This document shows, in pieces, positions 22,296 to 39,700 of a DNA stretch of 41,190 bases (the first letter of the stretch is position 1; each line of letters starts with the position of its first letter). This stretch comes from a virus. A program made the translations under genes and the position numbers. The notes beneath the pieces are model-generated. The model was not told where the DNA came from, made no database searches, and saw only the letters and a list, made by a program, of their open reading frames with translations. The DNA is taken from positions 1 through 41,190 of IMG/VR virus record IMGVR_UViG_3300017783_000060. The stretch is one strand, 5' to 3'.

Positions 22296-23135
22296 ATGGC
22301 ATCGTATGCAAGTTATAAAAAAGTCACATCAGATAGTATCCCATCGGGCGCAATAACAGCGGCAAAATTACAAGCCGGTGCTGGAGCGTGTCGTAAGGTA
22401 CAATGGATTTACAACGAACGAGGTTTACGTTGTCACCAGTGTGCTAGAGAGTCAGGCTGTTGTGAACAAGCAAACGGTAAGTGCTGTTATTGGTGTGTTC
22501 CAGACAACGTATATAAAGTAACATTTGAAATTTGGAGTGGCGGCGGCGGAGGCCCAGGTCACACATGTTGTAATTGTTGTTCATTTTCAATTGGTGGATT
22601 CGGCGGTAACTACGCAACTAAAACAATTGATACTAATCCAGGATGTCAGTATAGTGTATGTGCAGGAGGCAGTTGGCCTTGTGGTAAATCACACACATGT
22701 ACAGCAGGTATGGGATGTAGAAGTTATGTAAACGGACATAACCTAAGTAATTATTGTACAGACGGCGGATGTCCAGGTTGGATGTGTAACGGAGATGCGT
22801 GGGGTCAAAGACACGCTGTAACTAGTTGTGCTAACTGTAGAATTTGTGGTATCTTTGGAGCTGATTTTGGCTTTTCAGGAGATGCTGGTATTAAAGCAGG
22901 TACAACAACTTGTAGATGTCATGGACAAACAAGTTGGACAGGATCTGGTGCTGGTATGGGCATGTATATGGCTACTATGACAAACGAAGCATGGTGTGCT
23001 TGTGGATGTCATATTCCGTGGCCAGCAGGCGGAGGTACATCAGGAACATCAAGTTATTGTAATAACTGGGCAAAATGTTGTGCGGGTGGTTCAGGCCAAG
23101 GCGCATCAGGCATAGTAAAGATTACATTTGTATAA
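22296..23135 (+). CDS. Cys/Gly/Trp-rich tail-fibre protein, copy 1
   Basis: The 279-residue protein opens like a phage fibre (SYASYKKVTSDSIPSGAITAAKL). A glycine-rich tip-type domain follows, bounded by VTFEIWSGGGGGPG and GASGIVKITFV. I count 31 Cys (11%), many paired: CHQC, CCEQANGKCCYWC, CCNCC, CPGWMC, CANCRIC, CACGC, KCC. About ten Trp are also present. Gly-rich fibre domains are common in phages, but this Cys content is unusual. The residues could form disulphides in the virion or bind metal. GAGGAAAC precedes the start. Two close paralogues follow at 10-12 base spacing. Receptor binding is inferred from fibre-like ends and location. Confidence 0.7.
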   Translation: MASYASYKKVTSDSIPSGAITAAKLQAGAGACRKVQWIYNERGLRCHQCARESGCCEQANGKCCYWCVPDNVYKVTFEIWSGGGGGPGHTCCNCCSFSIGGFGGNYATKTIDTNPGCQYSVCAGGSWPCGKSHTCTAGMGCRSYVNGHNLSNYCTDGGCPGWMCNGDAWGQRHAVTSCANCRICGIFGADFGFSGDAGIKAGTTTCRCHGQTSWTGSGAGMGMYMATMTNEAWCACGCHIPWPAGGGTSGTSSYCNNWAKCCAGGSGQGASGIVKITFV

Positions 23136-23144
23136 GGAAAAAGA

Positions 23145-23981
23145 ATGGCAACGTATTCAAGTTATAAAACATTAACAGCAGACAACTTCGAAGATAATAG
23201 TATTACGGCGGCTAAACTAGGCGCTCAAGCTGGTAACAAATATGACTCATTTTATGTTTATAACGAGCGTGGAATGGCATGTCAACACTGTGCTGATAAC
23301 GGAAACTGTTGCCAACAAGCAAATGGTAAATGTTGTTACTGGACAGCTCCAGCAAATGTTTCTAGAGTAACATTTGAAATTTGGAGTGGCGGTGGAGCAG
23401 GAGCAGGCGGCACATGCTGTAACTGTTGTATGCACTCAGCAGGTGGATCAGGTGGTAACTACGCAGTAAAAAGTATTAGTACGTGTCCTGGCTGTCAATA
23501 TTCAATTTGTGCTGGCGGTACATGGCCATGTTCAAAATCACATACTTGTACAGCAGGTATGGGATGTAAGAGTTATGTAAATGGATATAACCTAAGTAAT
23601 TTTTGTGCTACAGGTGGTTGCCCAGGATGGATGTGTAATGGAGACGCATGGGGTCCTAGACACACACAAACATGTGGTAACTGTAATATATGCGGAATTT
23701 TTGGAGCAGACTTTGGAATTATGGGATCAACCGGAGTAACAGGCGGACACGGTGGATGTCAATGTAAATCAGGAGACTGGGGCATGACAGGATCAGCACC
23801 TTTTGTAGGTAAAAGATTTGCTGGTTCAAACGCAGAAGCATGGTGTAACTGTGCTTGTTATACGAACTGGCCTGCAGGTGGCGGACAAACAGGACAAAGT
23901 TCATATTGTGGTAACTGGGCAAAATGTTGCGCAGGCGGTAATATGGGTGGCTCAGGATTAGTTAAGGTAACATTCGCTTAA
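23145..23981 (+). CDS. Cys/Gly/Trp-rich tail-fibre protein, copy 2
   Basis: The 278-residue paralogue has the same fibre-like start (TADNFEDNSITAAKLGAQ), the VTFEIWSGGG and GSGLVKVTFA boundaries, and 30 Cys by my count in nearly the same positions. It differs from copies 1 and 3 by CCYWT instead of CCYWC, an extra Cys in STCPGC, and its own sequence between GIFGADFG and the final AWCNCAC block. Conservation of Cys positions with variable intervening residues suggests a constrained scaffold and a variable binding surface. AAGGAAAAAG precedes the start. Confidence 0.7.
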   Translation: MATYSSYKTLTADNFEDNSITAAKLGAQAGNKYDSFYVYNERGMACQHCADNGNCCQQANGKCCYWTAPANVSRVTFEIWSGGGAGAGGTCCNCCMHSAGGSGGNYAVKSISTCPGCQYSICAGGTWPCSKSHTCTAGMGCKSYVNGYNLSNFCATGGCPGWMCNGDAWGPRHTQTCGNCNICGIFGADFGIMGSTGVTGGHGGCQCKSGDWGMTGSAPFVGKRFAGSNAEAWCNCACYTNWPAGGGQTGQSSYCGNWAKCCAGGNMGGSGLVKVTFA

Positions 23982-23993
23982 GGAAAGATAAAA

Positions 23994-24830
23994 ATGGCAA
24001 CATACGCAAGTTATAAAAAAGTACCAGGTGAATCAATTGTAGACGGTAGTATTACAAGTGATGATATTGCCCACGGTAACGGTAACAACTACGGAGTACA
24101 ATGGATTTACAATTCTCGTGGCATGGTTTGCCATGCTTGTGCTAGACAAAGTGGTTGTTGCGAACAAGCAAATGGTAAATGTTGTTACTGGTGTGTTCCA
24201 AATGGAGCAAGTACAGTAACATTTGAAATTTGGTCAGGTGGAGGCGGCGCTCCAGGCATGACTTGTTGTAACTGTTGTTCTTTCTCAATTGGTGGAGCAG
24301 GTGGTAGTTATGCTACTAAAACAATTAGTACATCTCCAGGATGTCAATACAGTGTATGCGCAGGTGGCTCATGGCCATGTGGTAAAGCACATACTTGTGT
24401 AGCAGGAATGGGTTGTAAATCATACATTAACGGACATAATTTGTCAAACTTCTGTGTAGAAGGTGGCTGTCCGGGTTGGATGTGTAATGGTGATGCTTGG
24501 GGACCAAGACATACACATACATGTTCTAACTGTAGAGTATGTGGAATATTTGGCGCAGATTTTGGAATGATGGGAACAAGTGGTACAGAACCAGGACATG
24601 GTGGCTGTCACTGCTGGTATACTTATTCATTCTCAGGTTCAGCACCGATGATCGGTAAACAGCAAGTAGGCGTTACTAACGTTTCTTGGTGTTCATGTGG
24701 TTGTCATATTGATTGGCCAGCAGGCGGTGGACAATCGGGTGTTAGTTCATATTGTGGAAACTGGGCCAAGTGTTGTGGTGGCGGATCAGGTCAAGGCGGA
24801 TCTGGTGTAGTCAGAATAACATTTATGTAG
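23994..24830 (+). CDS. Cys/Gly/Trp-rich tail-fibre protein, copy 3
   Basis: The 278-residue third paralogue has the fibre start VPGESIVDGSITSDDI and the blocks CHAC, CCEQANGKCCYWC, CCNCC, CPGWMC, CSNCRVC, CSCGC and KCC, with 30 Cys by my count. It ends GGSGVVRITFM. It is closer to copy 1 in the first half and to copy 2 in the GTSGTEPGHGGCHC/GSAPMIGK stretch, which hints at exchange between copies. AAGGAAAG precedes the start. It is the last of the trio and is followed by a late-promoter-like site and the chaperone gene. Confidence 0.7.
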   Translation: MATYASYKKVPGESIVDGSITSDDIAHGNGNNYGVQWIYNSRGMVCHACARQSGCCEQANGKCCYWCVPNGASTVTFEIWSGGGGAPGMTCCNCCSFSIGGAGGSYATKTISTSPGCQYSVCAGGSWPCGKAHTCVAGMGCKSYINGHNLSNFCVEGGCPGWMCNGDAWGPRHTHTCSNCRVCGIFGADFGMMGTSGTEPGHGGCHCWYTYSFSGSAPMIGKQQVGVTNVSWCSCGCHIDWPAGGGQSGVSSYCGNWAKCCGGGSGQGGSGVVRITFM

Positions 24831-24862: not shown

Positions 24863-25651
24863 ATGAGAATGATTAGTAAAACATTTACTTACCCAGTATG
24901 GGATGCCTGGAGAACAAATAGTTTCGCCGAAGGACGTACAGATACATTTACGTACAACGGTCCGGAATTTTTAACTTTTGAAGTAAGCAATGATCCAAAC
25001 GATCCTGACTACGGAAAAGAAACTGGTTGGTGTTTATGGTTAAAACAAGACCTTGAACGTCCATCAGGCGCTGACGTTACAAGAATAACAGTTGATTGTA
25101 AAGAACAACCTTTACTATGTGAAATTGGTAACGATTGTGGTCGTGATGACATGATCCAAAAACGTAGACAAAGAGAATGGTTAGTACTATGGGACGCTCC
25201 TGAAGGGCACCAAGACGTAGAATACACAAATGACTTAGAACCAAGAGACATTTATAACGATAATGATATCACATATGATTTTGATACAGAAACGTTTAAT
25301 ATTGGCGTAAGAGATTGGGCCGCAACAGGTACAAAAATGGATCTTACATGGCAAGATCTTAGAGATGTAAGAGACCAAGACTTAAATGATACAGATGCTA
25401 AAGTTGGACAAACAGATGCTCCACAAGCAATTCAAGATGCTTGGATAGCTTACAGACAGCGTTTAAGAGATTTGCCAGCATGGGCACAAGCACAAGGTTA
25501 CGAACCATGGCAAGCAGTTCAAATGTGGCCAGTTATGCCAAAAGATATGCGTGATCCAGATGCGGCATCAGATCCAGAAGATCCGTATAGAGATGGAGCC
25601 TTTGCTGTAGACGTAGCAGTTGCTGCACTTAAAGTAGCCGGCAAAAGATAA
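24863..25651 (+). CDS. Probable tail-fibre assembly chaperone
   Basis: The 262-residue protein has a C-terminal half with LTWQDLRDVRDQDL and AWIAYRQRLRDLPAWAQ. This matches the 'RxxRDxxL...W..YRQxLRDLP' signature of the phage tail assembly chaperone family (Pfam Phage_tail_APC type). Such proteins are usually encoded next to fibre genes and help them fold or trimerise. The N-terminal half (about residues 1-140) is acidic and not recognised; it includes CEIGNDCG. Position directly after three fibre genes supports the role, and they are its likely clients. TTAGGAG gives the start. A strong terminator follows. Confidence 0.7.
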   Translation: MRMISKTFTYPVWDAWRTNSFAEGRTDTFTYNGPEFLTFEVSNDPNDPDYGKETGWCLWLKQDLERPSGADVTRITVDCKEQPLLCEIGNDCGRDDMIQKRRQREWLVLWDAPEGHQDVEYTNDLEPRDIYNDNDITYDFDTETFNIGVRDWAATGTKMDLTWQDLRDVRDQDLNDTDAKVGQTDAPQAIQDAWIAYRQRLRDLPAWAQAQGYEPWQAVQMWPVMPKDMRDPDAASDPEDPYRDGAFAVDVAVAALKVAGKR

Positions 25652-25672: not shown

Positions 25673-25705
25673 AAAAACCCTTACATTAACGTGTAAGGGT
25701 TTTTT
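25673..25705 (+). terminator. Strong Rho-independent terminator
   Basis: ACCCTTACA (25677-25685) pairs with TGTAAGGGT (25692-25700) around a six-base loop, flanked by an A tract and a T tract that extend the stem. It closes the structural block and separates it from the enzyme cassette. Confidence 0.9.
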
Positions 25706-25741: not shown

Positions 25742-25749
25742 TGTAAATA
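25742..25749 (+). promoter_or_regulatory. Possible late-type promoter TGTAAATA
   Basis: The motif has one mismatch to TATAAATA, at position 2. It lies after the terminator and 21 bases before the TTG start of the cassette's first gene. A perfect TATAAT at 25754 is also present but runs into the Shine-Dalgarno, so the late-type motif is the better candidate. Confidence 0.4.
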
Positions 25750-25770: not shown

Positions 25771-26829
25771 TTGGAACGCAAAAAAGCATATTTTATCAAC
25801 GGTGGAGCAGGCAGGGTTGTCGCAAGTATTCCAGCGTTTGAAAAACTGTACGAAGAAGATCAAGACTTTATTATTGTTTGTGAAGGCGGAATGGACTTTT
25901 ACAAAGGACATCCACAACTACATGAACTAGCATATGACAATTGGCATAAAAATTTATTTAAAGATTATCTTAAAGATAGAGATATTATTTCGCCAGAGCC
26001 GTATAGAGTCTGGGAATATTATAATCAAAAATGTAGTTTAGCACAAGCATTTGATATTGCTATTAATAACAAAGGTGTTAGAAAATTACAAGATCCAACT
26101 ATACATATGAACAAGCATGAACTTGTACAAGGGTATAAAGTTGTTGAAGAAATTAAAGCAGTAACTGGCAAAGACAAAGTAGTAGTGTTCCAACCATTTG
26201 GTCGTACAGCCGAAAATATGGGTGACTTTGTAATTGACGGAACTTCAAGAAGTTTTCACTTAAATGATGTTATACGTGTTTGTAAAGATTTGCGTGACGA
26301 CTATGCTGTGATTGTAATGAGCGAGTTTCCTGTAACTATTGAAGAAAAGCCAACAGTTCCTATTGCTGTTCCACAAATTCCAGATGTAAGAGTTTGGTCT
26401 AGTGTAATTCAAATTGCTGATCACTTTATTGGATGTGATAGTTTAGGACAACATATGGCAAAAGCATTAGGTACTACATGTACTAGTGTTATTGGTAGTA
26501 CATATCCTATTAATATTTCTTATCCAGACTCACCAGATTTTGATATTATTGATTTAGGTGAAGGCAAACGTAAGTTTAGTCCTATTAGACTTACTATGGA
26601 AGATGAAATCGAAAGATTTAATGACGAAGTTATGGAGTTAAATGATGAAAGTTTTAAAAAGATTATTTCAAGTGCTCGCAAGCGTTTGGGTAAGCCGAGA
26701 AGTTACAGCGGAAACTACAAACCGCAACAAGAGCAAGGGGAGGTCTGCCCAACTCATGGAGTAGTACATTCAGACGGAGTAACACATGCTAAACAACCTG
26801 CTCAAATATTAGGAAGAACAGGAAAATAA
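25771..26829 (+). CDS. GT9/heptosyltransferase-like glycosyltransferase
   Basis: The 352-residue protein resembles GT-B enzymes of family GT9, which move ADP-heptose-type sugars onto LPS core. The N terminus shows FINGGAGRVVASIPAFEKLYE, the nucleotide-fold start. The C-terminal half has VVVFQPFGRTAENMG and IQIADHFIGCDSLGQHMAKALG (D223, S224, H228), followed by SVIGSTYP, the donor-binding pattern of the family. A tail of about 45 residues after the GT fold (CPTHGVVHSDGVTH) is unexplained. The start is TTG, with AGGAG 25760-25764 at good spacing. It opens the modification cassette; a GmhB-like phosphatase nine genes on fits heptose chemistry. Acceptor unknown. Confidence 0.65.
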   Translation: MERKKAYFINGGAGRVVASIPAFEKLYEEDQDFIIVCEGGMDFYKGHPQLHELAYDNWHKNLFKDYLKDRDIISPEPYRVWEYYNQKCSLAQAFDIAINNKGVRKLQDPTIHMNKHELVQGYKVVEEIKAVTGKDKVVVFQPFGRTAENMGDFVIDGTSRSFHLNDVIRVCKDLRDDYAVIVMSEFPVTIEEKPTVPIAVPQIPDVRVWSSVIQIADHFIGCDSLGQHMAKALGTTCTSVIGSTYPINISYPDSPDFDIIDLGEGKRKFSPIRLTMEDEIERFNDEVMELNDESFKKIISSARKRLGKPRSYSGNYKPQQEQGEVCPTHGVVHSDGVTHAKQPAQILGRTGK

Positions 26830-26830
26830 A

Positions 26831-27529
26831 TTGGCTGAAGAATTTGATCATAGAGCTTTAGATGCTAGAATGGAACACGAGTGGCAAAAGAATGTTAAGC
26901 CGCAAGTAAAAGCCTCGCAAAGTTTAGAGACTTGGGTCATTACAGATAACTTTTACCCCGGATGGAAAAGGTTTGAAAAGTTATTTGACGATACAATATA
27001 CGATACTAAAAAAGATAAACTTATGCCTTATGTATTTTATACACAAGGTGAAATGAATTACCCAGACACAGTTGATCCTGAACTAGACTTTCAAGAATTT
27101 ATTAAAAAATGTTTACTTCAAAGTAGTTTACCAATTACTATGGGTAAATGTTTAAAAGCATGGGGATTAAAATATCCTCCGGGTTCGTACAGTGGTATGC
27201 ATTGTCATCAACCAGGCAAACAATTATCGGTTGTAATGTTTTTAGACGATGTAGAAACAACAGAACTATATCCATTAGCAGGATCACTAGTTACACTACA
27301 GCCGTTTGAACATGACATTAATCACGTTCGTATAAAACCAACGCCGGGTGGTGTTGTTATTATGGACGGAAGAGTATTTCACGGAACATATCCTACATTA
27401 AATGATCGTAGAGTATTTGTTGCTGATTTTGAATACGAAACATTTGAAACATTATCAACTCAAGCAGGTACATCTTTAATGTATCAACAAACAACTTTAC
27501 CTATGCCAAATCAGAACGATCTTGACTGA
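26831..27529 (+). CDS. 2OG-Fe(II)-oxygenase-like protein 1
   Basis: The 232-residue protein has a double-stranded beta-helix pattern: YPPGSYSGMHCHQPGKQLSV with H124 and H126, PGGVVIMDGRVFHGTYP with H184, and the paired Arg 193-194 in NDRRVFVADF. In 2-oxoglutarate oxygenases one proximal His plus an acidic residue and a distal His bind iron, and a distal Arg binds 2OG. Here HxH stands where HxD usually is, as in some marine phage members. The start is TTG one base after the preceding stop, with AGGA about eight bases upstream. Hydroxylation of a cassette substrate is inferred; a cupin of other function is possible. Confidence 0.6.
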   Translation: MAEEFDHRALDARMEHEWQKNVKPQVKASQSLETWVITDNFYPGWKRFEKLFDDTIYDTKKDKLMPYVFYTQGEMNYPDTVDPELDFQEFIKKCLLQSSLPITMGKCLKAWGLKYPPGSYSGMHCHQPGKQLSVVMFLDDVETTELYPLAGSLVTLQPFEHDINHVRIKPTPGGVVIMDGRVFHGTYPTLNDRRVFVADFEYETFETLSTQAGTSLMYQQTTLPMPNQNDLD

Positions 27530-27550
27530 TTTTATAGGTACATATAGTAT
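27522..27550 (+). promoter_or_regulatory. Possible sigma70-type promoter
   Basis: TTGACT (27522-27527) and TAGTAT (27545-27550) are separated by 17 bases in the only sizeable gap within the cassette, before the carbamoyltransferase gene. The -35 has five of six consensus bases and the -10 four of six. In this AT-rich sequence chance is a real alternative. Confidence 0.3.
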
Positions 27551-27575
27551 AACAACTTATTAAGGAAGAAAACGT

Positions 27576-29402
27576 ATGACACAGTGGATTGGCGCAATCA
27601 CAAGAGGACACAATGGAGGAGCAGTTCTCCTTAAAGATGGCGAAATTGTTTTTGCTATTGAAGAAGAACGCTTAACACGTAAAAAGTATGATGGCGGACC
27701 TCTTGCCGCAATGATCAAATTTTTAGAATATACAGATAAATTAGATTATCTAGTAGTAGCACATACACAACCTTTAGCAGATTCAAGTAGAATTGACTTT
27801 AGTGGCGGAGATATGTACACTGGACTAGCAAGAAAGTTAGGACTTATTGATAGAGCGGAAAATGCTTTTGGTTCAAACTTTGATCATAGACAAGTAATTG
27901 ACCTAAGTCATATACATCACAAGTTACATGCTAGTTGTGCGTTTTATAGATCAGGATTTGAAAGTGCTACAGCAGTAATTGTAGACGGTGCTGGTACATT
28001 TATTCCGATGAATATTAATGCTGGTCAGTTCCAAGAAGAATTTATGACTTGGGAATGTGAAACTATTTTTAATTGTTCATATCCTGATAACTTTAAAACT
28101 GTATTCAAACATCAAGGCGGCAACGGTCCTTTCCCAGGAGCAAAAGTTGATTATATTCCTTCTGAAAGAGAAGGTGAAGAAGGATATCACCAATTAATTT
28201 TAGATGATACTGCTGGCATTGTTAAAGCATACGAAGCAGTAACACAATACTGTGGATTTCAACCAATTGAAGCAGGTAAAACTATGGGATTAGCACCTTA
28301 TGGAAAGCCTAACCCTAATGTACCTCAAATTTATACTAACGGTGGCGGCGGCAAATGGACTAGCAGTGATAGAAATGTAATTGTACCTACATATCCTAAT
28401 GCGGCTGTGGTAAACGAAAGCAAATATGAGTTTTTAGAAACGTCTGAAGACTTACATGACAGTAATGTTGATCTTACAACATTAGAAAATCGAAGAGATT
28501 TAGCATATGCTGTACAAGCAGGATCCCAACAACAAGTTTTAGACTTAATTTTTCAATCTGTAGAAACTACAGGTAATAAAAATGTTGTACTTAGCGGAGG
28601 ATACGCATTAAATTGTGTTGCTAACTATTGGTATTTAGATAAATTGGCTAAAGAAGGTATTAATTTATATGTAGAGCCTGTTTCAAGTGACGCAGGTACA
28701 GCAATTGGTGCCGCTTTGTTAGTTTATCATCAAACAACTAAAGATAAAAAAGTAAGAGATTACGCAGAAACTATTTACGAAGGATTTAGTTATACATATA
28801 CTGACAAAGAGATTAATGATACTGCTGAGAAGTATAATGCTACAGTAGTTGATTGTCCTACTAACGATAAAGTTATAGAACTTATTAAAAACAATACTAT
28901 TGTAACTATGTTTCAAGGACGTTCTGAAAATGGACCAAGAGCATTAGGTAATAGAAGTATTTTATACAATCCAACAGACCCAGACGGAAAAGATCACGTT
29001 AATAAAGTCAAACGTAGAGAATATTTCCGTCCATTTGCCGGCACAATCTTAGCAGAACACGCACATGAATGGTTTGATATGAAAGGACTAGAAGAAAGTC
29101 CGCATATGATGTACGCAATGGATTGTAAAGACGGAGTTGCTGAAAAGATTCCAAGTATTATTCATGTAGACGGTACTTGTAGAATACAAACAGTTACCGA
29201 AAAACAAAATAAACATTACTATGACATTATTAATGCGTTTTATAAAGAAACAGGAGTTCCGATTATTTTTAATACTAGTTTTAATCTAGGCGGCGAACCT
29301 TTAGTAGAAACACTAGATGATGCTGTACGTACACTGTACAATAGTGAAATGGAGTATTGTTATTTGCCAGAATACGGCAAACTAATTGAAATGCGGAACT
29401 AA
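27576..29402 (+). CDS. Carbamoyltransferase (NodU/CmcH/TobZ family)
   Basis: The 608-residue protein is of typical family length and should transfer a carbamoyl group from carbamoyl phosphate, via carbamoyl-AMP, to a hydroxyl. The N-terminal domain has ITRGHNGGAVLLKDG, FAIEEERLTRKK, and HHKLHASCAF with H114, H115 and H118. The ASKHA-like core has VIVDGAGTF, GKTMGLAPYGKP, and LSGGYALNCVANY from residue 339. The C-terminal YrdC-like domain has FQGRSENGPRALGNRSIL, EYFRPFAGTI and FNTSFNLGGEPLV. Motifs look intact, so activity is likely. AAGGAAG precedes the ATG and the stop overlaps the next ATG (TAATG). The acceptor may be a sugar or natural-product-like molecule. This family is known in marine phages. 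Confidence 0.9.
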   Translation: MTQWIGAITRGHNGGAVLLKDGEIVFAIEEERLTRKKYDGGPLAAMIKFLEYTDKLDYLVVAHTQPLADSSRIDFSGGDMYTGLARKLGLIDRAENAFGSNFDHRQVIDLSHIHHKLHASCAFYRSGFESATAVIVDGAGTFIPMNINAGQFQEEFMTWECETIFNCSYPDNFKTVFKHQGGNGPFPGAKVDYIPSEREGEEGYHQLILDDTAGIVKAYEAVTQYCGFQPIEAGKTMGLAPYGKPNPNVPQIYTNGGGGKWTSSDRNVIVPTYPNAAVVNESKYEFLETSEDLHDSNVDLTTLENRRDLAYAVQAGSQQQVLDLIFQSVETTGNKNVVLSGGYALNCVANYWYLDKLAKEGINLYVEPVSSDAGTAIGAALLVYHQTTKDKKVRDYAETIYEGFSYTYTDKEINDTAEKYNATVVDCPTNDKVIELIKNNTIVTMFQGRSENGPRALGNRSILYNPTDPDGKDHVNKVKRREYFRPFAGTILAEHAHEWFDMKGLEESPHMMYAMDCKDGVAEKIPSIIHVDGTCRIQTVTEKQNKHYYDIINAFYKETGVPIIFNTSFNLGGEPLVETLDDAVRTLYNSEMEYCYLPEYGKLIEMRN

Positions 29403-30001
29403 TGAGCATACATTTATTTGGTATACCAGTATATAAAACGTTATTAAAAGAGCATAGTTTAGTTCAAGAAGACTTTAAAGAAATTCTTAACGATGATTCT
29501 AATTTTGCTAAAGTACCTACTTGGTATAGTAACGTTGATACTACTTACGGAAATAAAAAAGCTAACGAATTACCATTTAAACGATTTATTAGATCAGCTA
29601 TCGAAGGATTAAATGAATATTTAGAAGTATTTGACGTAGATGTTTCGTTAGATTACCAAATTGAATGTTGGGTTAATAGATATAAGCCAGGACAGTTCCA
29701 AGAAGTTCATAATCATGCTGGCCCTGCTCAGATTAGTTGTGCTTACATGCTTAAGACTCCTCCTAGTAGTGGAAATTTTGTGTTTCATAACAATACATAT
29801 GACTATTTTCATCAGTCAGGCTTACCTAGTTTGTCATCTAAAGATTTCAAATACAACAATAGAATAACACCTCCTTGTGAAGAAGGAGATATTATATATT
29901 TTCCAAGTAACCTTGGACATTATGTATCAGACAACCAAAGTAGTAATACCAGAGCAACTATAAGTGCTAATTTTGTTATAAGAGAGAAACACAATGGATA
30001 A
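29402..30001 (+). CDS. 2OG-Fe(II)-oxygenase-like protein 2
   Basis: The 199-residue protein resembles the small 2OG-Fe(II) oxygenase family frequent in marine phages (Pfam 2OG-FeII_Oxy_5 type). It starts IHLFGIPVYKT, has WVNRYKPGQFQEVHNHAGPA with H103 and H105, FVFHNNTY, and then IIYFPSNLGHYV with distal H173 and R184 in SNTRATISANF. The proximal motif is HNH where HxD would be expected; this is common in the family as I recall it. It is coupled to the carbamoyltransferase by a one-base overlap and to the next gene by eight bases. The substrate is unknown. Confidence 0.75.
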   Translation: MSIHLFGIPVYKTLLKEHSLVQEDFKEILNDDSNFAKVPTWYSNVDTTYGNKKANELPFKRFIRSAIEGLNEYLEVFDVDVSLDYQIECWVNRYKPGQFQEVHNHAGPAQISCAYMLKTPPSSGNFVFHNNTYDYFHQSGLPSLSSKDFKYNNRITPPCEEGDIIYFPSNLGHYVSDNQSSNTRATISANFVIREKHNG

Positions 30002-30692
30002 AAATGTAATTGATGAGGACGAAGTATTTGCCGTTAATCCTGATTGGTCCATTTCAGTACAAAAATTTAATGATGTTAAAGTAGTTATTGTTGATGACTT
30101 TTACAAAGATCCTTGGGCAGTAAGAAAACTAGCATTAGATATCCCTGCCTCGTATAATAAACGTATCAGAGGTGGCAATCCTGCTTTAAGAGTTAATGCG
30201 TTTTATGAATTATCTAATTTAGGATGGGCTTTCGATCAATTAATTAGTACATACTTTGATGATGTGTACTATGAGCATCCTTTGGGCTGGGTACAAGAAA
30301 GTTTAATGAGAGCTACCTTTATGGTAAATGTAATGCAAACAGACAATCTACCTCCGATTGCTCCACATCAGGATAATCCTAGTAAAATTAATATAGCATC
30401 TACAATATATCTTAATACACCTAACGAATGTGCTGGTGGTACAAGTTTTTATACATACAATGATAAAACAACATATGACGAACCTGGGAATAAAACATTA
30501 GACGTTGCTGGAAAGCATCCTATAACACAATATATTACAGATAGTATTGGTGATTTTAAAATGATCGGTATGGTTCCGATGATATTTAATAGGATGGTTT
30601 TGTATAATCAATCAAAACTACATACAGCATATGTAAAACCAGAAATGTTTACTGGTAATCTTTACAGATTAAACCAACAATTTTTTATATAG
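29994..30692 (+). CDS. 2OG-Fe(II)-oxygenase-like protein 3 (DUF6445-like)
   Basis: The 232-residue protein has VVIVDDFYKDPWAVRKLAL near its start, then IAPHQDNPSKINIASTIYLN with an intact H125-x-D127, GGTSFYTYN, a distal H210 in SKLHTAYV and R225 in LYRLNQQFF. This is a full HxD...H...R set for iron and 2-oxoglutarate. I associate this sequence type with a family often encoded next to tryptophan-halogenase-like genes in marine bacteria, which agrees with the halogenase two genes away. It overlaps the preceding gene by eight bases. It may act on the same substrate as the halogenase; this is inference. Confidence 0.65.
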   Translation: MDKNVIDEDEVFAVNPDWSISVQKFNDVKVVIVDDFYKDPWAVRKLALDIPASYNKRIRGGNPALRVNAFYELSNLGWAFDQLISTYFDDVYYEHPLGWVQESLMRATFMVNVMQTDNLPPIAPHQDNPSKINIASTIYLNTPNECAGGTSFYTYNDKTTYDEPGNKTLDVAGKHPITQYITDSIGDFKMIGMVPMIFNRMVLYNQSKLHTAYVKPEMFTGNLYRLNQQFFI

Positions 30693-30701
30693 GAGAAAAT
30701 A

Positions 30702-31277
30702 ATGGATGGTAATTTTGACGGAGTTGAAGAATACCCAAATGCTTTTCCGATTGACTGGTGTAAGCAAGTTATAAAACGCTTTGAGGAAATGTCAGCTAAT
30801 AATTTAACAAATTTACAAAGTAGTACAAAGAATCAAGACGAACGTGTATACATGGACTGGGCAAATCATAATAGTAGGTATCATGCCGACGATGATCTTT
30901 GCCATTTCTTTTATAGTACCCTTAATAAAATTTATACAGAGAAGTATCGAGGCAAATACGAAAGTTTAGGTAACGTTTTACAACATTCGCCTAAAGGAAT
31001 GAGTATACAAAAGACTAAACCGCACCAAGGATATCATGCTTGGCACTGTGAGAATGCAGATTTAAGTTCATCGTCACGTATACTTGCTTATACTGTCTAC
31101 TTAAACGCTGTTGAAGAAGGCGGCGAAACAGAATTTTTGTATCAAGGTATAAAGTGTAAGCCTGAACCTGGTAAACTTTGTATTTTTCCTACATCTTTTA
31201 CACATCCACATCGAGGTAATCCTATATATAAAGGAGTTAAGTATATTGTAACTGGATGGTACACATTAGATGAATAA
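30702..31277 (+). CDS. Prolyl-4-hydroxylase-like 2OG-Fe(II) oxygenase 4
   Basis: The 191-residue protein shows the P4H-type order GYHAWHCEN, then RILAYTVYLNAVEEGGETEF, GKLCIFPTSFTHPHRGN and GVKYIVTGWYT. Metal ligands would be H115 with E117 (HxE in place of HxD) and H168 or H170, with the Lys of VKYIVTGWY facing 2OG. Similar proteins are common in cyanophages. The HxE variant could alter activity. It starts with an ATG nine bases after the preceding stop, behind TATAGGAG, and its end overlaps the halogenase start by eight bases. The substrate is unknown. Confidence 0.75.
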   Translation: MDGNFDGVEEYPNAFPIDWCKQVIKRFEEMSANNLTNLQSSTKNQDERVYMDWANHNSRYHADDDLCHFFYSTLNKIYTEKYRGKYESLGNVLQHSPKGMSIQKTKPHQGYHAWHCENADLSSSSRILAYTVYLNAVEEGGETEFLYQGIKCKPEPGKLCIFPTSFTHPHRGNPIYKGVKYIVTGWYTLDE

Positions 31278-32751
31278 AAGTATGAACATAGCAGTAGTTG
31301 GAGGTGGCACAGCAGGATTTGTGTCAGCACTAATTATAAAAGCAACCTTTCCTAAAATGAAAATTGATATGATCCGATCAAGTAAGATTGGAACTATAGG
31401 TGTTGGCGAAGGATCTACTGAACATTGGTCAAAGTTTATGGACTATGTAGGTATTACTGCTGGCAAACTTATAAAAGAATGTGATTCTACATTTAAAGCA
31501 GGCATTATGTTTGAAGACTGGACTAAAGATCCATATTTACAAAACGTACATGACCCGGTAGTAGCTGATCATATGGGATTTCCTATGGTACTAGCTAAAT
31601 TGATCGGTGAGAAGGTTCCAGTTGAAGAGTTCGTAGGAACTTATCTCTGGAAAAACGAAACACCGTTTATGAAATTTATTGAGGAACAACCAAACGAAAC
31701 GGGAGTAGCCCAATATCATTTCAATACACAAAAATTAAATGACTTTCTAACTAATTTTTCAATTAGCAAAGGTATAAACATTATTGACGATGAAATTACA
31801 AAAGTAAATGTAACTGATCAAAACGTAATAGAATCAATTGAAGGCGAAAAACAAACATACAACTATGATTTTTATATTGACTGTACAGGATTTAGTCGAT
31901 TATTAATTAAAGAGCTCGGTGCCGAATGGCAAAGTTATAGTAAGCATCTTAAAATGAAAGAAGCTATTGTATTCCCTACAGAATATACTAATACAATTGA
32001 TCCTAGAGGCAATGAAATACCAATGTGGACACTAGCAAAGGCTATGGATGCCGGTTGGATGTTTCGTATACCAGTATGGAACAGAAAAGGTAATGGATAT
32101 ATTTTTGACAGTGACTTTATTACTGCCGAACAAGCCCAACGTGAGGTAGAAGCATACCTTGGACACGGAATTGAGGTAGCCAAGCACATTAAATTTGATC
32201 CTGGCGCACTTGATAAACCGTGGATAGGTAATGTATGTGCTACTGGACTTAGTGCTAGTTTTGTAGAGCCTTTAGAAGCAAGTAGTATTGGTACTACTAT
32301 ACAACAAACATTTTTATTAGTTAAACGTTTAATTAATTATAATAATCAAAGTATAGAAAAATATAACAATGAAGTAAATGATATTACAGACAACATTAGA
32401 GACTTTATTGCTTTACATTACATTACACCTAGACGTGATACTCCTTTCTGGAAAGCAGTAGCAGATACTCCTTTACCAGAATCATTAAAACAAAATTTAG
32501 AAATGTGGAAGACACGTATTCCTATAGACGATGATATGGCTCCTAACGTATTGTTTAATGAATATAATTTTTCTATCGTTATGTATGCGTTAGGATTGTT
32601 TAACACTGATAAAATATTAGAACAATATAATCAAATACCTCCCGAAGCCCAAGAACATGCTGAAAGAAGATGCCAAGAAAAAATTGACTTTGATCAAATA
32701 AAATCTATTCCGCATAAAATGATGTTAGGACTTTTGCGGAGTCTAGTATGA
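31270..32751 (+). CDS. Flavin-dependent tryptophan-halogenase-family protein
   Basis: The 493-residue protein has the FAD-binding start IAVVGGGTAGFVSALI (GxGxxG). GVGEGSTEHW and TFKAGIMFEDW follow, with K76 at the position of the catalytic Lys of PrnA/RebH, and FVEPLEASSIG with E336 at the position of the catalytic Glu. The WxWxIP hallmark is present as WMFRIP (263-268), Phe replacing the second Trp. It therefore looks competent to form hypohalous acid, but substrate and halide are open. A marine cyanophage member of this family, VirX1, is known to iodinate varied substrates. A flavin reductase is needed and none is seen here. The start overlaps the previous gene; M5 at 31282 is a possible alternative. 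Confidence 0.85.
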   Translation: MNKSMNIAVVGGGTAGFVSALIIKATFPKMKIDMIRSSKIGTIGVGEGSTEHWSKFMDYVGITAGKLIKECDSTFKAGIMFEDWTKDPYLQNVHDPVVADHMGFPMVLAKLIGEKVPVEEFVGTYLWKNETPFMKFIEEQPNETGVAQYHFNTQKLNDFLTNFSISKGINIIDDEITKVNVTDQNVIESIEGEKQTYNYDFYIDCTGFSRLLIKELGAEWQSYSKHLKMKEAIVFPTEYTNTIDPRGNEIPMWTLAKAMDAGWMFRIPVWNRKGNGYIFDSDFITAEQAQREVEAYLGHGIEVAKHIKFDPGALDKPWIGNVCATGLSASFVEPLEASSIGTTIQQTFLLVKRLINYNNQSIEKYNNEVNDITDNIRDFIALHYITPRRDTPFWKAVADTPLPESLKQNLEMWKTRIPIDDDMAPNVLFNEYNFSIVMYALGLFNTDKILEQYNQIPPEAQEHAERRCQEKIDFDQIKSIPHKMMLGLLRSLV

Positions 32752-33608
32752 GGATATTTGCTTTTGGATGTAGCCTAACACAATATTTTTATCCAACGTG
32801 GGCAGACATACTACTATACCAATATAAAAATAAAGGGTATGAAACATCTAACTGGGCAAAAAGTGGCGCAGGTAATATGTATATCAATATGCGTCTATGG
32901 GAAGCTAATTCTATACACAAGTTTAATAAAGATGATATAATTTTACTACAATGGTCAAGTATGTTTCGTGAAGACCGATACCATATGGGACACGGTTGGT
33001 GGACACCAGGAAACTTTCATCAAAGTCATATGGATGATGGGAAATTTGAACTTAACAATTATCAATATACTAATAAATGGCAATGGGCTGATATGATACA
33101 TTGTACTATGAGAGATTGTAGTCTTATATCGTCAACTCATAAAGCATTAAAAGCAATTGGATGTAAAGTTGTTACAACTAACTTTCGAGATCCAATTGAA
33201 GGTTGGGAAGAACAATCACTTACATTTAATCAAGATAATAAAAAATTAGAATTAGAAGATGTAAGATCAATCCTTGAAATTTATAAAGATGATATAGCAA
33301 CTAGCGTACCTCCTATACTAAATGCTTTAGGGTTTGGAACAAACGAAGAATTTTTTAATTCTAGACCAAAGAGTGTTCCAAGTAGAAAGCCTGAACATCA
33401 GTATATGCTTAATCCGGAAGTACATCCTTTAACACACGAAGCGGCTGAATTTATCGAAACACATATAGAAAAGTTAGATACAAAGACAAAAGAATTTGTA
33501 GATAGTTGGAAACAAAAATTAATTAATAATGATCCTATATACCTAGAAGATTTACAATGGGTTAATCCAAATAAGGTAGGATGGTCAGATGATAGATGGA
33601 GACCTTAA
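32748..33608 (+). CDS. SGNH/GDSL-like hydrolase
   Basis: The 286-residue protein begins MRIFAFGCSLTQYFYPTWAD, which resembles block I of SGNH hydrolases with GCS in place of GDS (nucleophile S9). NWAKSGAGN (G40, N43) would be block II, and NPEVHPLTHEAA near the C terminus gives H226 as candidate catalytic His, though the usual Asp three before it is replaced. Family members hydrolyse esters or remove acyl groups from sugars. The middle is long and Trp/His-rich (YHMGHGWWTPGNFHQSH). The ATGA overlap with the halogenase indicates coupling. It may deacylate the sugar being decorated, or could be a non-enzymatic relative. Confidence 0.6.
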   Translation: MRIFAFGCSLTQYFYPTWADILLYQYKNKGYETSNWAKSGAGNMYINMRLWEANSIHKFNKDDIILLQWSSMFREDRYHMGHGWWTPGNFHQSHMDDGKFELNNYQYTNKWQWADMIHCTMRDCSLISSTHKALKAIGCKVVTTNFRDPIEGWEEQSLTFNQDNKKLELEDVRSILEIYKDDIATSVPPILNALGFGTNEEFFNSRPKSVPSRKPEHQYMLNPEVHPLTHEAAEFIETHIEKLDTKTKEFVDSWKQKLINNDPIYLEDLQWVNPNKVGWSDDRWRP

Positions 33609-34171
33609 TGAGTACACCGGTAATAGGATTAGATAGAGACGGAACTATAAATGAGGATATTGGTACATATGTAACAAAGCCTGAAGATTTCAAACCTATC
33701 GAAGGAAGTTTAGAAGCAGTTAAAATAATTAGAGATAAAGGTTACGATGTAGTAATTTTAACTAATCAAGCAGGCATTATGAAAGGTATTATGGACGCAG
33801 TTGATGTAGACCTTGTTCATAATTATATGCTAGAATTATTAGGAAATATTGGATGTAAAAGCATTAACGGATTATATTATTCTACAACTAATTTAAAAGA
33901 TGACATATATGCTAAACCAAATACAGGAATGTTTAAAAGAGCATCAGCTGAAATTGGTGTAAATTGGAAAAACGGATTGTATGTTGGGGATAAAATTAGT
34001 GATCTAAAAGCCGCTGTAAAGGCTAAAGCAAAGCCTGTATTAGTACGTACAGGATACGGGATTGAAACTTCCAAGAAGCTAAACACGTTTTCTAACAAAG
34101 ATATAAAGAAACAAACGGATATATTTGATAATTTATACCAGTTTGCCCATAGCTTAACAGACTTATCTTAA
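33608..34171 (+). CDS. HAD phosphatase, GmhB-like (heptose-bisphosphatase type)
   Basis: The product has the HAD motif I LDRDGTIN (D9, D11 from this start), YVTKPEDFKPIEG, motif II VVILTNQAGI, AKPNTGMFKRA, and motif IV YVGDKISDLKAA. This order is typical of GmhB and histidinol-phosphatase-type enzymes that dephosphorylate sugar bisphosphates. The zinc-binding Cys cluster usual before RKPxPGM in GmhB is absent. I chose ATG 33608 over 33596: it makes a TAATG overlap with the preceding stop, as at 29402, and GGAG 33598-33601 lies six bases upstream. With the GT9-like gene it suggests heptose-like sugar metabolism. Confidence 0.75.
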   Translation: MSTPVIGLDRDGTINEDIGTYVTKPEDFKPIEGSLEAVKIIRDKGYDVVILTNQAGIMKGIMDAVDVDLVHNYMLELLGNIGCKSINGLYYSTTNLKDDIYAKPNTGMFKRASAEIGVNWKNGLYVGDKISDLKAAVKAKAKPVLVRTGYGIETSKKLNTFSNKDIKKQTDIFDNLYQFAHSLTDLS

Positions 34172-34200: not shown

Positions 34201-34208
34201 GATAAATA
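34201..34208 (+). promoter_or_regulatory. T4-late-type promoter motif GATAAATA
   Basis: The motif follows the cassette and precedes the next structural gene by 18 bases, with ATGGAG between as ribosome site. It marks the return to structural genes. Confidence 0.6.
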
Positions 34209-34741: not shown

Positions 34742-36226
34742 ATGGCAAAATCAACGATTAATATAGGTGGTGCAGCAAACGACGGAACAGGTGATTCGCT
34801 TCGTGGCGCAGGTACAAAACTAAATGCTAATACAGATGAACTGTATAACGCACTAGGTGACGGAACAAGTTTAAAAGATATTATTAACTCAAACATGGAA
34901 CTTGATGTTCCAAATGATGATTCTAAAGTTAATAAAATAGCATTCCACGTTGCTAGTACTAATGCGTTAAACCAAGTCAGTGCAAGCACTTATCACGGCG
35001 CACAGCTACATAATCATCAAACAGGTACAGTACACGTAGCACACGCAGGCGCTTGGCATAAACTGCTTTTAGACGCAAGCGGCGGAGCAATTACAAATTA
35101 TACTGATCCATTATCTGCTGTTGCTTACACCGGCAACATTAACTCGTTGACAGATGTTGATACGGTATCACAAGCACCTCAAGCTGGTAACGTTTTAAAA
35201 TGGGACGGAGCAAAATGGGCACCAGGAACTGACTCAACATCAGGTGGCGGCGGAACAGACGCTGACACACTAGACGGATTTGATAGTTCATATTTTACAA
35301 ATTATAATAACTTAAACAACAAGCCATCTATTCCATCACTACTAACAGATTTAAGTATAGTAGATGGTTCAAGTGGGCAAGTACTAACAGCGGCTGGCGA
35401 CGGAACATTTAGTTTCGCAACAGTGTCAGCAGGTAGTACACAAAGTTTATTTGAAACATTTACAGCAGACACAGGATCAACAACTGCTAATAGCGCAACT
35501 GATACATTAACTGTAGCAGGTGGAACTAATATTTCAACATCGATGGTTGGTGACACAGTTACAATTAACTATGTTGGATCGCCAAACTCAGGTGAAGCTA
35601 ACCAAAATGCTTTCTCGAATGTACAAGGAGACAGCGGATTAGCAGAAGCAGACAATACAACAGATACTTTAACAATCGCTGGCGGAACAGGTATTACTAC
35701 ATCAGTAGCAGGCGATACAATTACAATTGCATCATCAGGCGGCGCATTAGGCGACAATTCAGATGTTACAATAACTTCACCAAGTACTGGAACAGTAATT
35801 GTTTGGAATGGCACTGCTTGGGTTGACACACAAACATCAATTGATAGAATGGCATATCCTGCTATTACTACACTTGTAGTGTCAGCTGATAACAGTAACG
35901 GATATAAGTTTGATGCTTACGGATCAACTGAAGATCCAACTATATTTGCTCTTAATGGTGCTACAATAGCATTTGATTTAAACGATTCGTCAATGGGAAT
36001 GCATCCATTTCAAATTGAAACAGGAGCAGGAGCACAGTACAACACAGGACTTACACATGTATCAACCGCAGGCGTAGTATCTACAGGTAGTAACGCACAA
36101 GGTCAAACAGGTGGAACACTATATTGGAAAATTCCAGCAAACATTAGTGGGAACTACGCATACCAGTGTACTTCACACTCAGCAATGCGTGGAACTATTA
36201 CAATTAAACAGATTAGCGCAATATAA
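34742..36226 (+). CDS. Tail-fibre-like protein with C-terminal cupredoxin-like domain
   Basis: The 494-residue protein begins with INIGGAANDGTGDSLRGAGTKLNANTDELY, the ANDGTGD module of many marine phage fibre or baseplate proteins. Shaft-like repeats follow, including NSATDTLTVAGGTNISTSMVGDTVTI and NTTDTLTIAGGTGITTSVAGDTITI, which are two clear copies of a 26-residue-type unit near residues 250 and 300. The last 125 residues form the cupredoxin-like domain listed separately. The ribosome site, AAGGTG, lies in the previous gene's end. A fibre exposing a copper-protein fold at its tip is an unusual arrangement. Confidence 0.75.
   Translation: MAKSTINIGGAANDGTGDSLRGAGTKLNANTDELYNALGDGTSLKDIINSNMELDVPNDDSKVNKIAFHVASTNALNQVSASTYHGAQLHNHQTGTVHVAHAGAWHKLLLDASGGAITNYTDPLSAVAYTGNINSLTDVDTVSQAPQAGNVLKWDGAKWAPGTDSTSGGGGTDADTLDGFDSSYFTNYNNLNNKPSIPSLLTDLSIVDGSSGQVLTAAGDGTFSFATVSAGSTQSLFETFTADTGSTTANSATDTLTVAGGTNISTSMVGDTVTINYVGSPNSGEANQNAFSNVQGDSGLAEADNTTDTLTIAGGTGITTSVAGDTITIASSGGALGDNSDVTITSPSTGTVIVWNGTAWVDTQTSIDRMAYPAITTLVVSADNSNGYKFDAYGSTEDPTIFALNGATIAFDLNDSSMGMHPFQIETGAGAQYNTGLTHVSTAGVVSTGSNAQGQTGGTLYWKIPANISGNYAYQCTSHSAMRGTITIKQISAI
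35851..36220 (+). other. Cupredoxin-like domain with type-1 copper ligand set
   Basis: About residues 370-493 follow the plastocyanin-like order: YKFDAYG, DPTIFALNGATIAFDLND, MHPFQIETGAG, LYWKIPANISGNYAYQC and CTSHSAMRGTITI. Candidate ligands are H421, C476, H479 and M482, with spacing C-x2-H-x2-M as in type-1 copper sites. All four are present, so copper binding is plausible. Electron transfer or a purely structural role cannot be told apart. Confidence 0.7.
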
Positions 36227-36795: not shown

Positions 36796-39700
36796 ATGGC
36801 TAAGAAAAAGATTTACGACTATAAGTTTTATCCAGGGTTAGGGTTAGATGATAATTTATATCCTAATGCTTACGCACTGCTATCACTTAACAAAGAATTT
36901 ATTAAAAAAGAAGTAGCGGCTTGGATACAATATCAAGTTAACGCAGGAACAACAGGGTTTGTAGGTTATACTTATAACGACTCCAAGTGTGAAAGAGATA
37001 CAGGTTATAATCTTGATGCTTACGCATTTGACATGCGCTACGGCGGAAACGAAGAAACTACAAGAATTTCAAATACATATTGGGAACAAGACGTTGCCCA
37101 AGTTGACGGCGACAGACAAGCAGAAATCTTAGCTAAAGGCTTTACTAGAGACTTAATTGTTAATCACGTCTTTACTAACAGTCCACAATCAACTCCATTC
37201 CAAGGAAACGTAGCACAAGTAACAAATGGTACAAATTCTGAAGTACCAGCAGGAGCACGTATTAACGGACTAGTAGGAATAGTTATTGATGTATTAACAA
37301 CAGGAACTAGTGCTTTACCAACATTTGAGCGTAAAGGCTTAGGACATGTTAGATTTGTAGGAAACTATGACTCAAGCGACTTACTTATTGTTACTAACAC
37401 AACAGACGCAACAGTAATTTATAACTTTACTGACGAATTAAAAGGCGGTATTGTAACACGTAAAGATGATGTAACACCTAGAGATAGTAGTGGCTATGTT
37501 GAAAAATATGATTCAGTTAATGCTAACGAAAACGCAGATGCTGACTTTCCAAAATATTTACAAGTAACAGATAGTATTACTGTATTAGATTTAAAATTTA
37601 ATACATCAACAATGAGTACTGAAGACGAATTACAAATCTTTGTAGATTCTCCAGTACAAACAACAAGACCATTTGATTTTGGTACTGATGCTATTGAACG
37701 TATGCGTGTAGCGCCTCCATTAAGTATGCTTGATGCTGACTTTGAATACGGACTACAGCCTACTAAATGGTCAGCTATTGGTATGATGCGTGGTTATCCA
37801 AGTGTTTACGAATTACCAGGTACTGATACACAGGTATTAAGTGTTACTACAGATGCTTCTGTAGGATCAGAAGGCATTGGTGCTAGTTTAATTACAGTAA
37901 CAACATTAGGTGCTCACGGCTTTGAACCGGGCACTCCGATTACAATTAAAGCACTTGAAGATGCTGTTGTTGGAGCGGCAAGAGCTGAAGGTTCATTTAT
38001 TATTACAACAATTCCAACAAATAACACATTTACATTTTATGCTAAAGCAAAAGTTGGTACAGCAAGCGGACAAGTACTATCAACAACGTATACACAGTTA
38101 CGTAAAGGTGCTTTCTACACTGGAGCAAGTGTAGGACAGCCACAGTTTTTTGTATACAGTAACGGTACAGCAGGTACTATGACTTTGGCACTTGCGGCAC
38201 AGCAAAGTGAAAACAGATTAGCGTTTACAGGTGATGTACCAGAAATTGGTGCTCCGATTGATGACCCAGCTTTCCCAACAGGAACACAGGTAACTGGTAT
38301 TGCTAGTACACCTGATGGTAACGCATTAGGAATGCAATTATCAAGTGATATTGGTATTGGTAACACAAATTTTACAGTTGGTAATACTACAGGAATTGTT
38401 CCAGGACTAGCGGCTGATAACGGTAGCGGAGATGCTATTTTTGTTAATACTGTTGTAGGTAGTACAGTAACAATGAGTGGTAGTTTTACTCAAGCTATTA
38501 CTAGAAACACAGAAACATATACAGCAGTATCAGGAAACATTCCTAGTCCAGTAGGTAGTAATGGACAGTTTAATATTAATAGAAACGGAATAAATTATAC
38601 TGTATCATCAATAGCACAATCAGGATCAGGGTATGTTGCTGGTGACGCAATTACAATTACAGGTGATAATTTAGGCGGCGCAACTCCGGCAAATGATGCT
38701 TTAGTAATTGTTACAACAGTTAATGGCACAGGCGGCATTACAGCGGCAAGTGTAACAGGAACAGCATTAAGCGGAAGTATTTCATACAATAGTGTTACTG
38801 AAACATATAACAATGGCTCAGGTAGCATTGGAACAACAAACTTTGATATCTTATATGAAAATAACGGATTTACAACAGTTGATATTAACTCACCAAACGA
38901 TTCAACAGGATATGCTATAAACGATAGATTGAAGATAGCAGGAAGTTCACTGCTAGGTGGAACAGGCCAAGACGGTAATCAAGCTAATAGCGGTAATGAC
39001 TTTATTGGTAAAGTTACAGCAGTTGGTGCCGGTGGATCAATCACAACACTAGCACCAGATACAGGCTGGAGTATTGGTACTCCTCCAAGTCAAACTAGAA
39101 ATTATAGCTTTGGCGGTGGAAACTTAACGTTTACAGGTGGTTCAGGATCAAACTTTGAATTTAGTATTAATGTAAATGGAACTACATACAGTATTCAATA
39201 CGGAGGCTCGGCAGGTACAGGGTACAATACAGCAGATACACTTGTTTGTGCTGGTACAGATATGGGCGGAGCAAGTCCAGCAAATGATTTATATTTAAGA
39301 GTTGTTTCGGTTGATGCCGTAGGTGGAATTACTGATGTAAGACTAGAAGGCGCAGATGTGTCGTCAGTACCATCAGCATTCAACGGCGGATCATTTGAAA
39401 GTAAAACACTAGCAAACTTATCTGGAACAGGCGCTGACTTTAATATTACTAACGACGGTAGTAATTACAGTGTTGCTATAGCAACAGCAGGTACAGATTA
39501 TCATATAGATCAAACATTTACAGTAGCAGGCGACACTATTGGTGGATCAACACCAGGCAATGATGCTACAATAACTATTAGTGCTGTTGGCGGAACTGAC
39601 GGTTCAATTAGCACAGTATCAATAGCAGGATCGGCACCATCATTACCAACAGACTTCACAGCAGTATCAGGTGTTAATCAAGCACATGCTGGAGCAGGCG

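Follow-up and report, generated by a model that had tools for sequence, protein, structure and literature searches.

A nine-gene cassette beside cysteine-rich fibre genes in a relative of large T4-like phages: a candidate module for fibre decoration

The locus and its boundaries

A 41,190-nucleotide stretch of DNA from a large marine phage (IMG/VR record IMGVR_UViG_3300017783_000060, positions 1 to 41,190; hereafter the window) contains a cassette of nine genes, g1–g9, coding for a GT9-like glycosyltransferase, four 2-oxoglutarate (2OG) oxygenase-like proteins, a carbamoyltransferase, a flavin-dependent halogenase, an SGNH-like hydrolase, and a GmhB-like phosphatase (Table 1). Three tandem genes for cysteine- and glycine-rich fibre proteins lie just upstream. 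Genes related to g1 are tightly associated with cysteine-rich fibre genes across phage relatives, and these proteins (~11% Cys) are the strongest clue to the substrate of the cassette. They were missed, together with a second heptose/halogenase operon beyond the window, in an earlier note on this DNA that had suggested a single pathway for the nine genes.

All nine open reading frames (ORFs) are present as the mostly overlapping array first described, with five of the eight junctions overlapping by 1–13 nucleotides and the other three forming gaps of 1, 46, and 9 nucleotides. The terminator and late-type promoter that had been named as bounds were also recovered. The terminator separates the chaperone-like gene g0 from g1, and similar hairpin-T stretches occur in many relatives. 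Directly 5' of g1, most relatives have ATAAATATTT, and the window version is TGTAAATATTT. Exact copies of TATAAATA are not overrepresented in the window, and counting them does not single out late promoters, so the promoter assignment rests on conservation. With a terminator before it and conserved promoter elements, the cassette has the appearance of a late transcription unit with defined limits.

Table 1. Features of the cassette and its surroundings (positions in the window)
Feature	Position	Strand	Properties
Three tandem Cys/Gly-rich fibre proteins (F0 family, phrog_4205), proposed acceptors	22296..24830	+	278-279 amino acids
g0, tail assembly chaperone-like protein	24863..25651	+	PF16778 E 9e-6, just under cut-off; PHROG tail fiber assembly
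Intrinsic terminator (hairpin-U), 5' of cassette	25673-25704	+	Fold -21.4 kcal/mol, z -3.5
Late-type promoter element before g1	25742..25749	+	TGTAAATA in window, ATAAATA in most relatives; positional conservation
g1–g9 cassette	25771-34171	+	Nine ORFs, tightly packed, intact
g1, GT9-like (heptosyltransferase-type) glycosyltransferase	25771..26829	+	TTG start; phrog_8954
g2, 2OG-Fe(II) oxygenase-like	26831..27529	+	HxH..H..R invariant 40/40
g3, NodU/TobZ-type O-carbamoyltransferase	27576..29402	+	Metal ligands invariant 42/42
g4, 2OG-Fe(II) oxygenase	29402..30001	+	PF13759 59 bits, above cut-off
g5, DUF6445, 2OG-like	29994..30692	+	DUF6445 67 bits; HxD..H..R invariant 42/42
g6, prolyl-4-hydroxylase-like 2OG oxygenase	30702..31277	+	PF13640 50 bits, above cut-off
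g7, flavin-dependent (tryptophan-type) halogenase	31270..32751	+	PF04820 307 bits, above Pfam cut-off
g8, SGNH/GDSL-like hydrolase	32748..33608	+	Fold search and motifs
g9, GmhB-like HAD phosphatase	33596..34171	+	D-x-D, T, K, D motifs intact
Late-type promoter GATAAATA, before next structural gene	34201-34208	+	Kept in 25/25 groups
T4 gp9/gp10-like structural protein flanking cassette	34742..36226	+	PF07880 33.8 bits
Giant fibre gene, runs off window end	36796..41190	+	In relatives, convergent cupin/HldD/HldE/halogenase operon next

Conservation and synteny

Viral contigs were scanned with g1, g7, g8, and g9 and dereplicated to 39 distinct cassettes. Gene order is nearly fixed in the 27 closest contig groups. 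Six genes (g3, g4, g5, g7, g8, and g9) are present in all 27, g1 in 26, g6 in 24, and g2 in 22; the single group lacking g1 (L099) is cut off at its g1 end. Two extra genes, F15 and F19, are variably present. The place of the cassette between fibre genes and the neck region is fixed, which bears out the earlier description of a co-conserved unit beside fibre genes. Median ratios of nonsynonymous to synonymous substitution rates (dN/dS) in the close groups are 0.03–0.15 across all nine genes, and each family retains its catalytic residues with little or no variation, which means that the genes are in use. Independent assortment and degraded active sites, either of which had been named as grounds for abandoning the single-pathway idea, were not seen within this close clade.

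More distant cassettes contain the same families in shuffled order, some of them inverted and several with two or three halogenases. The idea of one pathway is thus supported as co-conservation in the close clade but not as a fixed set of nine, since in distant phages just the GT9-like gene and the carbamoyltransferase gene, often joined by HldE, HldD, and a cupin, stay with a cysteine-rich fibre. In the known cyanophages P-SSM2, S-SSM7, S-CAM1, and Sf-FS3, genes of these two families follow the fibre genes at the equivalent position, directly before the neck genes in S-SSM7 and Sf-FS3. The relatives are large T4-like phages. A cyanophage origin for them is unlikely; psbA was not found in nine records, and the terminase is nearest to those of jumbo PA5oct-like phages.

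Cysteine-rich fibre proteins track g1

The three F0 fibre proteins contain 18% Gly and 3.5% Trp in addition to their high Cys content, and 14 Cys columns in the family alignment are at least 90% conserved. In close relatives g0 always lies between F0 and g1. Defining a cysteine-rich protein as one with at least 8% Cys, such a protein is encoded upstream in all 29 cassettes with enough upstream sequence. Loci that have a halogenase or carbamoyltransferase without g1 (Syn10, S-H38, HTVC008M, S-CAM8, and several contigs) reach a maximum local Cys content of 2.7%–6.7% and have no cysteine-rich fibre. Local Cys content was 10%–17% at every additional g1-like locus, these being from a Vibrio phage, single-cell marine viruses, and contigs of metagenome-assembled genomes.

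A scan that used divergent g1 sequences as queries supplied new data, gathered after the 29-cassette observation. It yielded 56 distinct loci with ~26%–36% identity, of which 50 have a cysteine-rich ORF (median peak 13.7% Cys over all 56). These ORFs are on the same strand as g1 in 49 of the 50, upstream in 48, and within 1.5 kb in 45. Cysteine-rich fibres were found at 0 of 40 VirX1-like halogenase loci without g1, and the single such halogenase locus with g1 has one. Comparing 50/56 with 0/40 gives a Fisher P value of 5e-21 when the relatedness of loci is ignored. At carbamoyltransferase loci without g1 the count is 0 of 9, with fibres of 30%–35% Gly and no more than 4.7% Cys. We therefore rejected the halogenase and the carbamoyltransferase as the genes that track cysteine-rich fibres.

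The 56 distant loci encode a carbamoyltransferase in 53 cases, HldE, HldD, and a cupin in about 30 each, a 2OG enzyme in 12, a halogenase in three, and an SGNH enzyme in two. The distant core consists of a cysteine-rich fibre, the GT9-like gene, and the carbamoyltransferase. ADP-heptose genes often accompany this core, and genes of the halogenase, 2OG, and SGNH types are optional additions to it. Distant g1-like genes were also seen beside tail proteins with cysteine-rich segments in Aeromonas phage HJ05 (L241, 7306-9921) and the N4-like (Schitoviridae) Vibrio phage SBP1 (L242, 8998-12519), and no carbamoyltransferase is annotated near either.

Enzyme families

Family assignments that had been made from visible motifs fared differently from gene to gene. 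Searches with hidden Markov models (HMMs) strongly support a carbamoyltransferase (g3), a flavin halogenase (g7), two 2OG oxygenases (g4 and g6), and a GmhB-like HAD enzyme (g9). The g3 product matches PF16861 (200 bits) and PF02543 (92 bits), both above Pfam cut-offs, and like g7 has many solved relatives. It contains both domains and the metal-site residues of NodU/TobZ carbamoyltransferases, differing in that, throughout the window clade, its gene accompanies the GT9-like g1 as an immediate neighbour. In TobZ, which has Kae1-like and YrdC-like domains, the metal ligands are H114, H118, D137, and D338 (TobZ numbering), and the equivalent H, H, D, and D residues of g3 are invariant. In an alignment of 47 halogenases, nearly all have the flavin adenine dinucleotide motif, all 47 the catalytic Lys, and 44 the catalytic Glu; the Trp and Pro of Wx(W/F)xIP are present in 47/47, and the window version reads WxFxIP. 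The g9 product scores 88 bits with TIGR00213 and 132 bits with PRK08942, under the 178-bit cut-off of the latter, and its HAD motifs are kept in 33–34 of 34 aligned sequences.

Support for the GT9-like (g1), SGNH-like (g8), and remaining 2OG-like (g2 and g5) calls is weaker and comes from fold searches and invariant motifs. The motif HxD/E (or HxH)...H...R/K is kept in all four 2OG families. The g2 product matches phrog_81 (E 9e-12) and aligns with g4 in hhalign (E 2e-5), and g5 was assigned through DUF6445, hhalign, PHROG, and its motif. The PHROG family of g5, phrog_1644, is annotated "minor coat protein", yet it is DUF6445 with HxD..H..R and is probably an oxygenase. For g8, HMM searches gave no match, and its profile returned nothing useful against PDB sequences. 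Its 25 best Foldseek matches are all SGNH/GDSL-type enzymes, none below E 0.001. SGNH hydrolases have Ser in block I, Gly and Asn in blocks II/III, and an acid and His in block V. In g8 a conserved Ser, Gly, Asn, and E-x-H were identified (FGCS...E-x-H), and the canonical block III Asn was not. No homologue of g8 was found in the phage records searched.

For g1 there is no Pfam match, and the match to RfaQ is weak (E 6e-4, 18.7 bits against a cut-off of 467). The top Foldseek matches of its structural model are all GT9 enzymes: 3tov, 1psw (WaaF), 2gt1 (WaaC), and 4rb4 (TibC, a protein heptosyltransferase). The model thus suggests a GT-B fold resembling GT9, a structural and soft assignment. 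Use of ADP-heptose by g1 is indirectly suggested by the HldE and HldD genes nearby in relatives.

ADP-heptose genes

Together, HldE, HldD, the GmhB-like g9, and the GT9-like g1 would provide most of an ADP-heptose pathway. In cyanophages and divergent relatives, the GT9/carbamoyltransferase cluster itself contains a cupin gene, HldD, and both activities of HldE (kinase and adenylyltransferase). In the window clade these genes make up a separate operon on the other strand, which also encodes two additional halogenases and a NUDIX protein. This convergent operon was seen ~9 kb past g9, just before the neck genes, in six relatives that belong to three lineages. Fourteen distinct contigs extend beyond the giant fibre gene, and in each of them the cupin gene is the next one. 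The two halogenases of the operon (in the relatives L232, 10754-16661, and L233, 8299-13741) are divergent and, with the one in the cassette, make three halogenases per phage in at least three lineages. The label "phosphoheptose isomerase" on cyanophage F25 proteins (e.g., S-SSM7, L002 21468-21803) looks wrong; these have a weak match to a HAD capsule-phosphatase model, not to SIS-type GmhA.

Proposed function

We think it reasonably likely that the nine genes form a module, expressed late, whose products decorate the fibre proteins of the phage itself by heptosylation and carbamoylation, with optional hydroxylation and halogenation. What supports this reading is the gene complement and its conservation, together with undamaged catalytic motifs, the position of late-type promoters, and the close link between g1 and cysteine-rich fibres. 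The g9 enzyme, with HldE and HldD of the neighbouring operon, would help make ADP-heptose, and g1 would attach this heptose to the three fibre proteins whose genes lie immediately upstream. The attached sugar would be carbamoylated by g3, the usual next step after g1. The 2OG enzymes, halogenase, and SGNH hydrolase, presumably lineage-specific additions, would then hydroxylate, halogenate, trim, or deacylate the sugar or nearby residues. The outcome would be a chemically diversified fibre tip that may serve receptor binding, adhesin stability, or shielding.

Known systems offer partial parallels. TibC, a GT9-type enzyme that uses ADP-heptose to hyperglycosylate an adhesin (PMC4358343), is the best functional precedent for g1. 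The BAHT enzymes (TibC/AAH) resemble the proposed g1 in using ADP-heptose to glycosylate an adhesin. They differ in their acceptor, an autotransporter as opposed to the proposed cysteine-rich phage fibre, and in their four-Cys iron finger, which g1 lacks because only two of its cysteines (C36 and C87) are invariant. The cyanophage clusters of P-SSM2, S-SSM7, and S-CAM1 (T4-GC 302-308) share with the cassette an adjacent pair, the GT9-like GC302 and the carbamoyltransferase GC303, that follows genes for Cys/Gly-rich fibres. They also hold HldE-N, HldE-C, HldD, and a cupin, with a halogenase inside the S-SSM7 cluster, but no homologue of the GmhB-like g9 or the SGNH gene g8 was found in them. 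Mycobacteriophages likewise carry glycans on virion proteins (cited in PMC12619734); these are on the capsid and tail tube, and the work consulted describes no heptose, carbamoyl, or halogen gene set. The open-access literature yielded no published description of a coupling between g1 and cysteine-rich fibres or of such virus-surface chemistry.

Several points count against fibre decoration. That the fibre is the acceptor, that heptose is the donor sugar, and how the two are linked are inferences from gene data, as are the sequence of reactions and the advantage to the phage. The assignment of g1 to GT9 is weak by sequence, with nothing convincing in a profile search of PDB sequences, and its structural model has low confidence (predicted local distance difference test score 59). 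The loop of g9 that would hold the GmhB zinc site (C-x-H...C-x-C) has no Cys or His. Since the window ends inside the giant fibre gene, the HldE/HldD/cupin operon of this phage lies outside it and is predicted from relatives, where the HldE and HldD matches fall under curated cut-offs. A complete phage-encoded set (GmhA, HldE, GmhB, and HldD) was not recovered, although relatives have HldE and HldD. Because GmhA was not found in ten records, the phage pathway would be incomplete unless the host supplies that step or the cupin replaces it, as either may do. No cysteine-rich ORF was found at six of the 56 distant g1 loci, two of which have almost no upstream sequence. Finally, the association is uncorrected for phylogeny, and the loci behind it, collected by homology, do not represent phylogenetically independent cases.

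A more specific and rather doubtful extension is that the g1 family are cysteine S-glycosyltransferases, capping many of the ~30 conserved thiols in each fibre protein with (carbamoylated) heptose. The idea arises because g1 associates with cysteine-rich, not merely glycine-rich, fibres. The fibre tip, made under the reducing conditions of the cytoplasm, would then be densely S-glycosylated and sometimes halogenated. The conservation of Cys positions is compatible with modification at specific sites, and likewise with disulfides or metal binding, which leaves S-linkage as a proposal. If true, S-glycosylation by g1 would be a new and widespread viral protein modification.

Alternative explanations

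The enzymes might instead remodel the host's surface lipopolysaccharide (LPS) or capsule during infection, for superinfection exclusion or receptor change. Genes of the HldE/HldD/GmhB type are LPS core genes in bacteria, and a 2010 cyanophage survey treated the co-occurring genes as LPS genes of unknown use, asking whether they were functional or stuffer (PMC3037559). Host remodelling is nonetheless unlikely given the late-type promoters, the fixed place between fibre and neck genes, the covariation of g1 with cysteine-rich fibre proteins, and the precedent of TibC for GT9 enzymes acting on adhesin proteins.

A small-molecule natural product acting on the host or on competitors is distinctly improbable as the end point. 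No scaffold-building enzyme was found in the nine genes or the neighbouring operon, the cassette is tied to fibre genes wherever upstream sequence is available, and the halogenase and SGNH genes are optional across relatives. These observations outweigh the resemblance of glycosyl transfer, carbamoylation, halogenation, and hydroxylation to antibiotic tailoring (TobZ, GdmN, and novobiocin-type carbamoyltransferases; tryptophan halogenases) and the acceptance of many small aromatics by the viral halogenase VirX1 (PMC8407142).

Hypermodification of genomic DNA bases by a 2OG oxygenase and glycosyltransferase is highly improbable: phages do glycosylate bases and g2 has a marginal Tet_JBP match (E 0.09), but the oxygenases belong to PF13759, PF13640, and DUF6445, and the late-type promoters and fibre synteny also argue against it. 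That the cassette is functionless packaging stuffer, an option that the 2010 survey raised for cyanophage LPS clusters (PMC3037559), is scarcely credible, being already contradicted by the low dN/dS of all nine genes and their near-invariant catalytic residues.

Halogenases and wider significance

Halogenases are listed among abundant cyanophage auxiliary genes (PMC10452541). The iodinating VirX1 of cyanophage Syn10 (CPUG_00131) was characterised in vitro and shows that viral members of the group take aromatics other than free tryptophan (PMC8407142). VirX1 belongs to the g7 superfamily, with 6qgm matching g7 at 155 bits. Its locus in Syn10 (L240, 7476-17655) includes fibre genes, two adjacent halogenases, and about ten ORFs of ~600 bp, at least seven of which match 2OG-like families of the cassette. 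This may be the native setting of VirX1; it differs from the cassette in having no g1-like gene and no cysteine-rich fibre.

For fifteen years, marine phage halogenases, carbamoyltransferases, and 2OG enzymes have been listed as auxiliary or stuffer genes without a substrate. The tie of a conserved core to cysteine-rich fibres leads to a testable claim about virion chemistry, and the core is carried by the cultured isolates S-SSM7, S-CAM1, and P-SSM2. The link may also have a bearing on what VirX1-type halogenases do in nature; they, too, adjoin fibre genes.

Other features of the window

At its C-terminus the gp9/gp10-like protein (34742-36226) resembles a cupredoxin in sequence, including a possible type-1 copper site (CTSHSAM); Pfam gives no cupredoxin match. 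Another fibre protein (16593-21449) has four CBM_5_12 (carbohydrate-binding module) repeats, and the protein encoded at 7181-10894 has a laminin-G-like lectin domain. A freshwater-2 cis-regulatory RNA motif (RF02980, 68.6 bits, E 1.5e-8) was identified at 209-293 on the plus strand, ending at the start codon of the ORF at 291-752.

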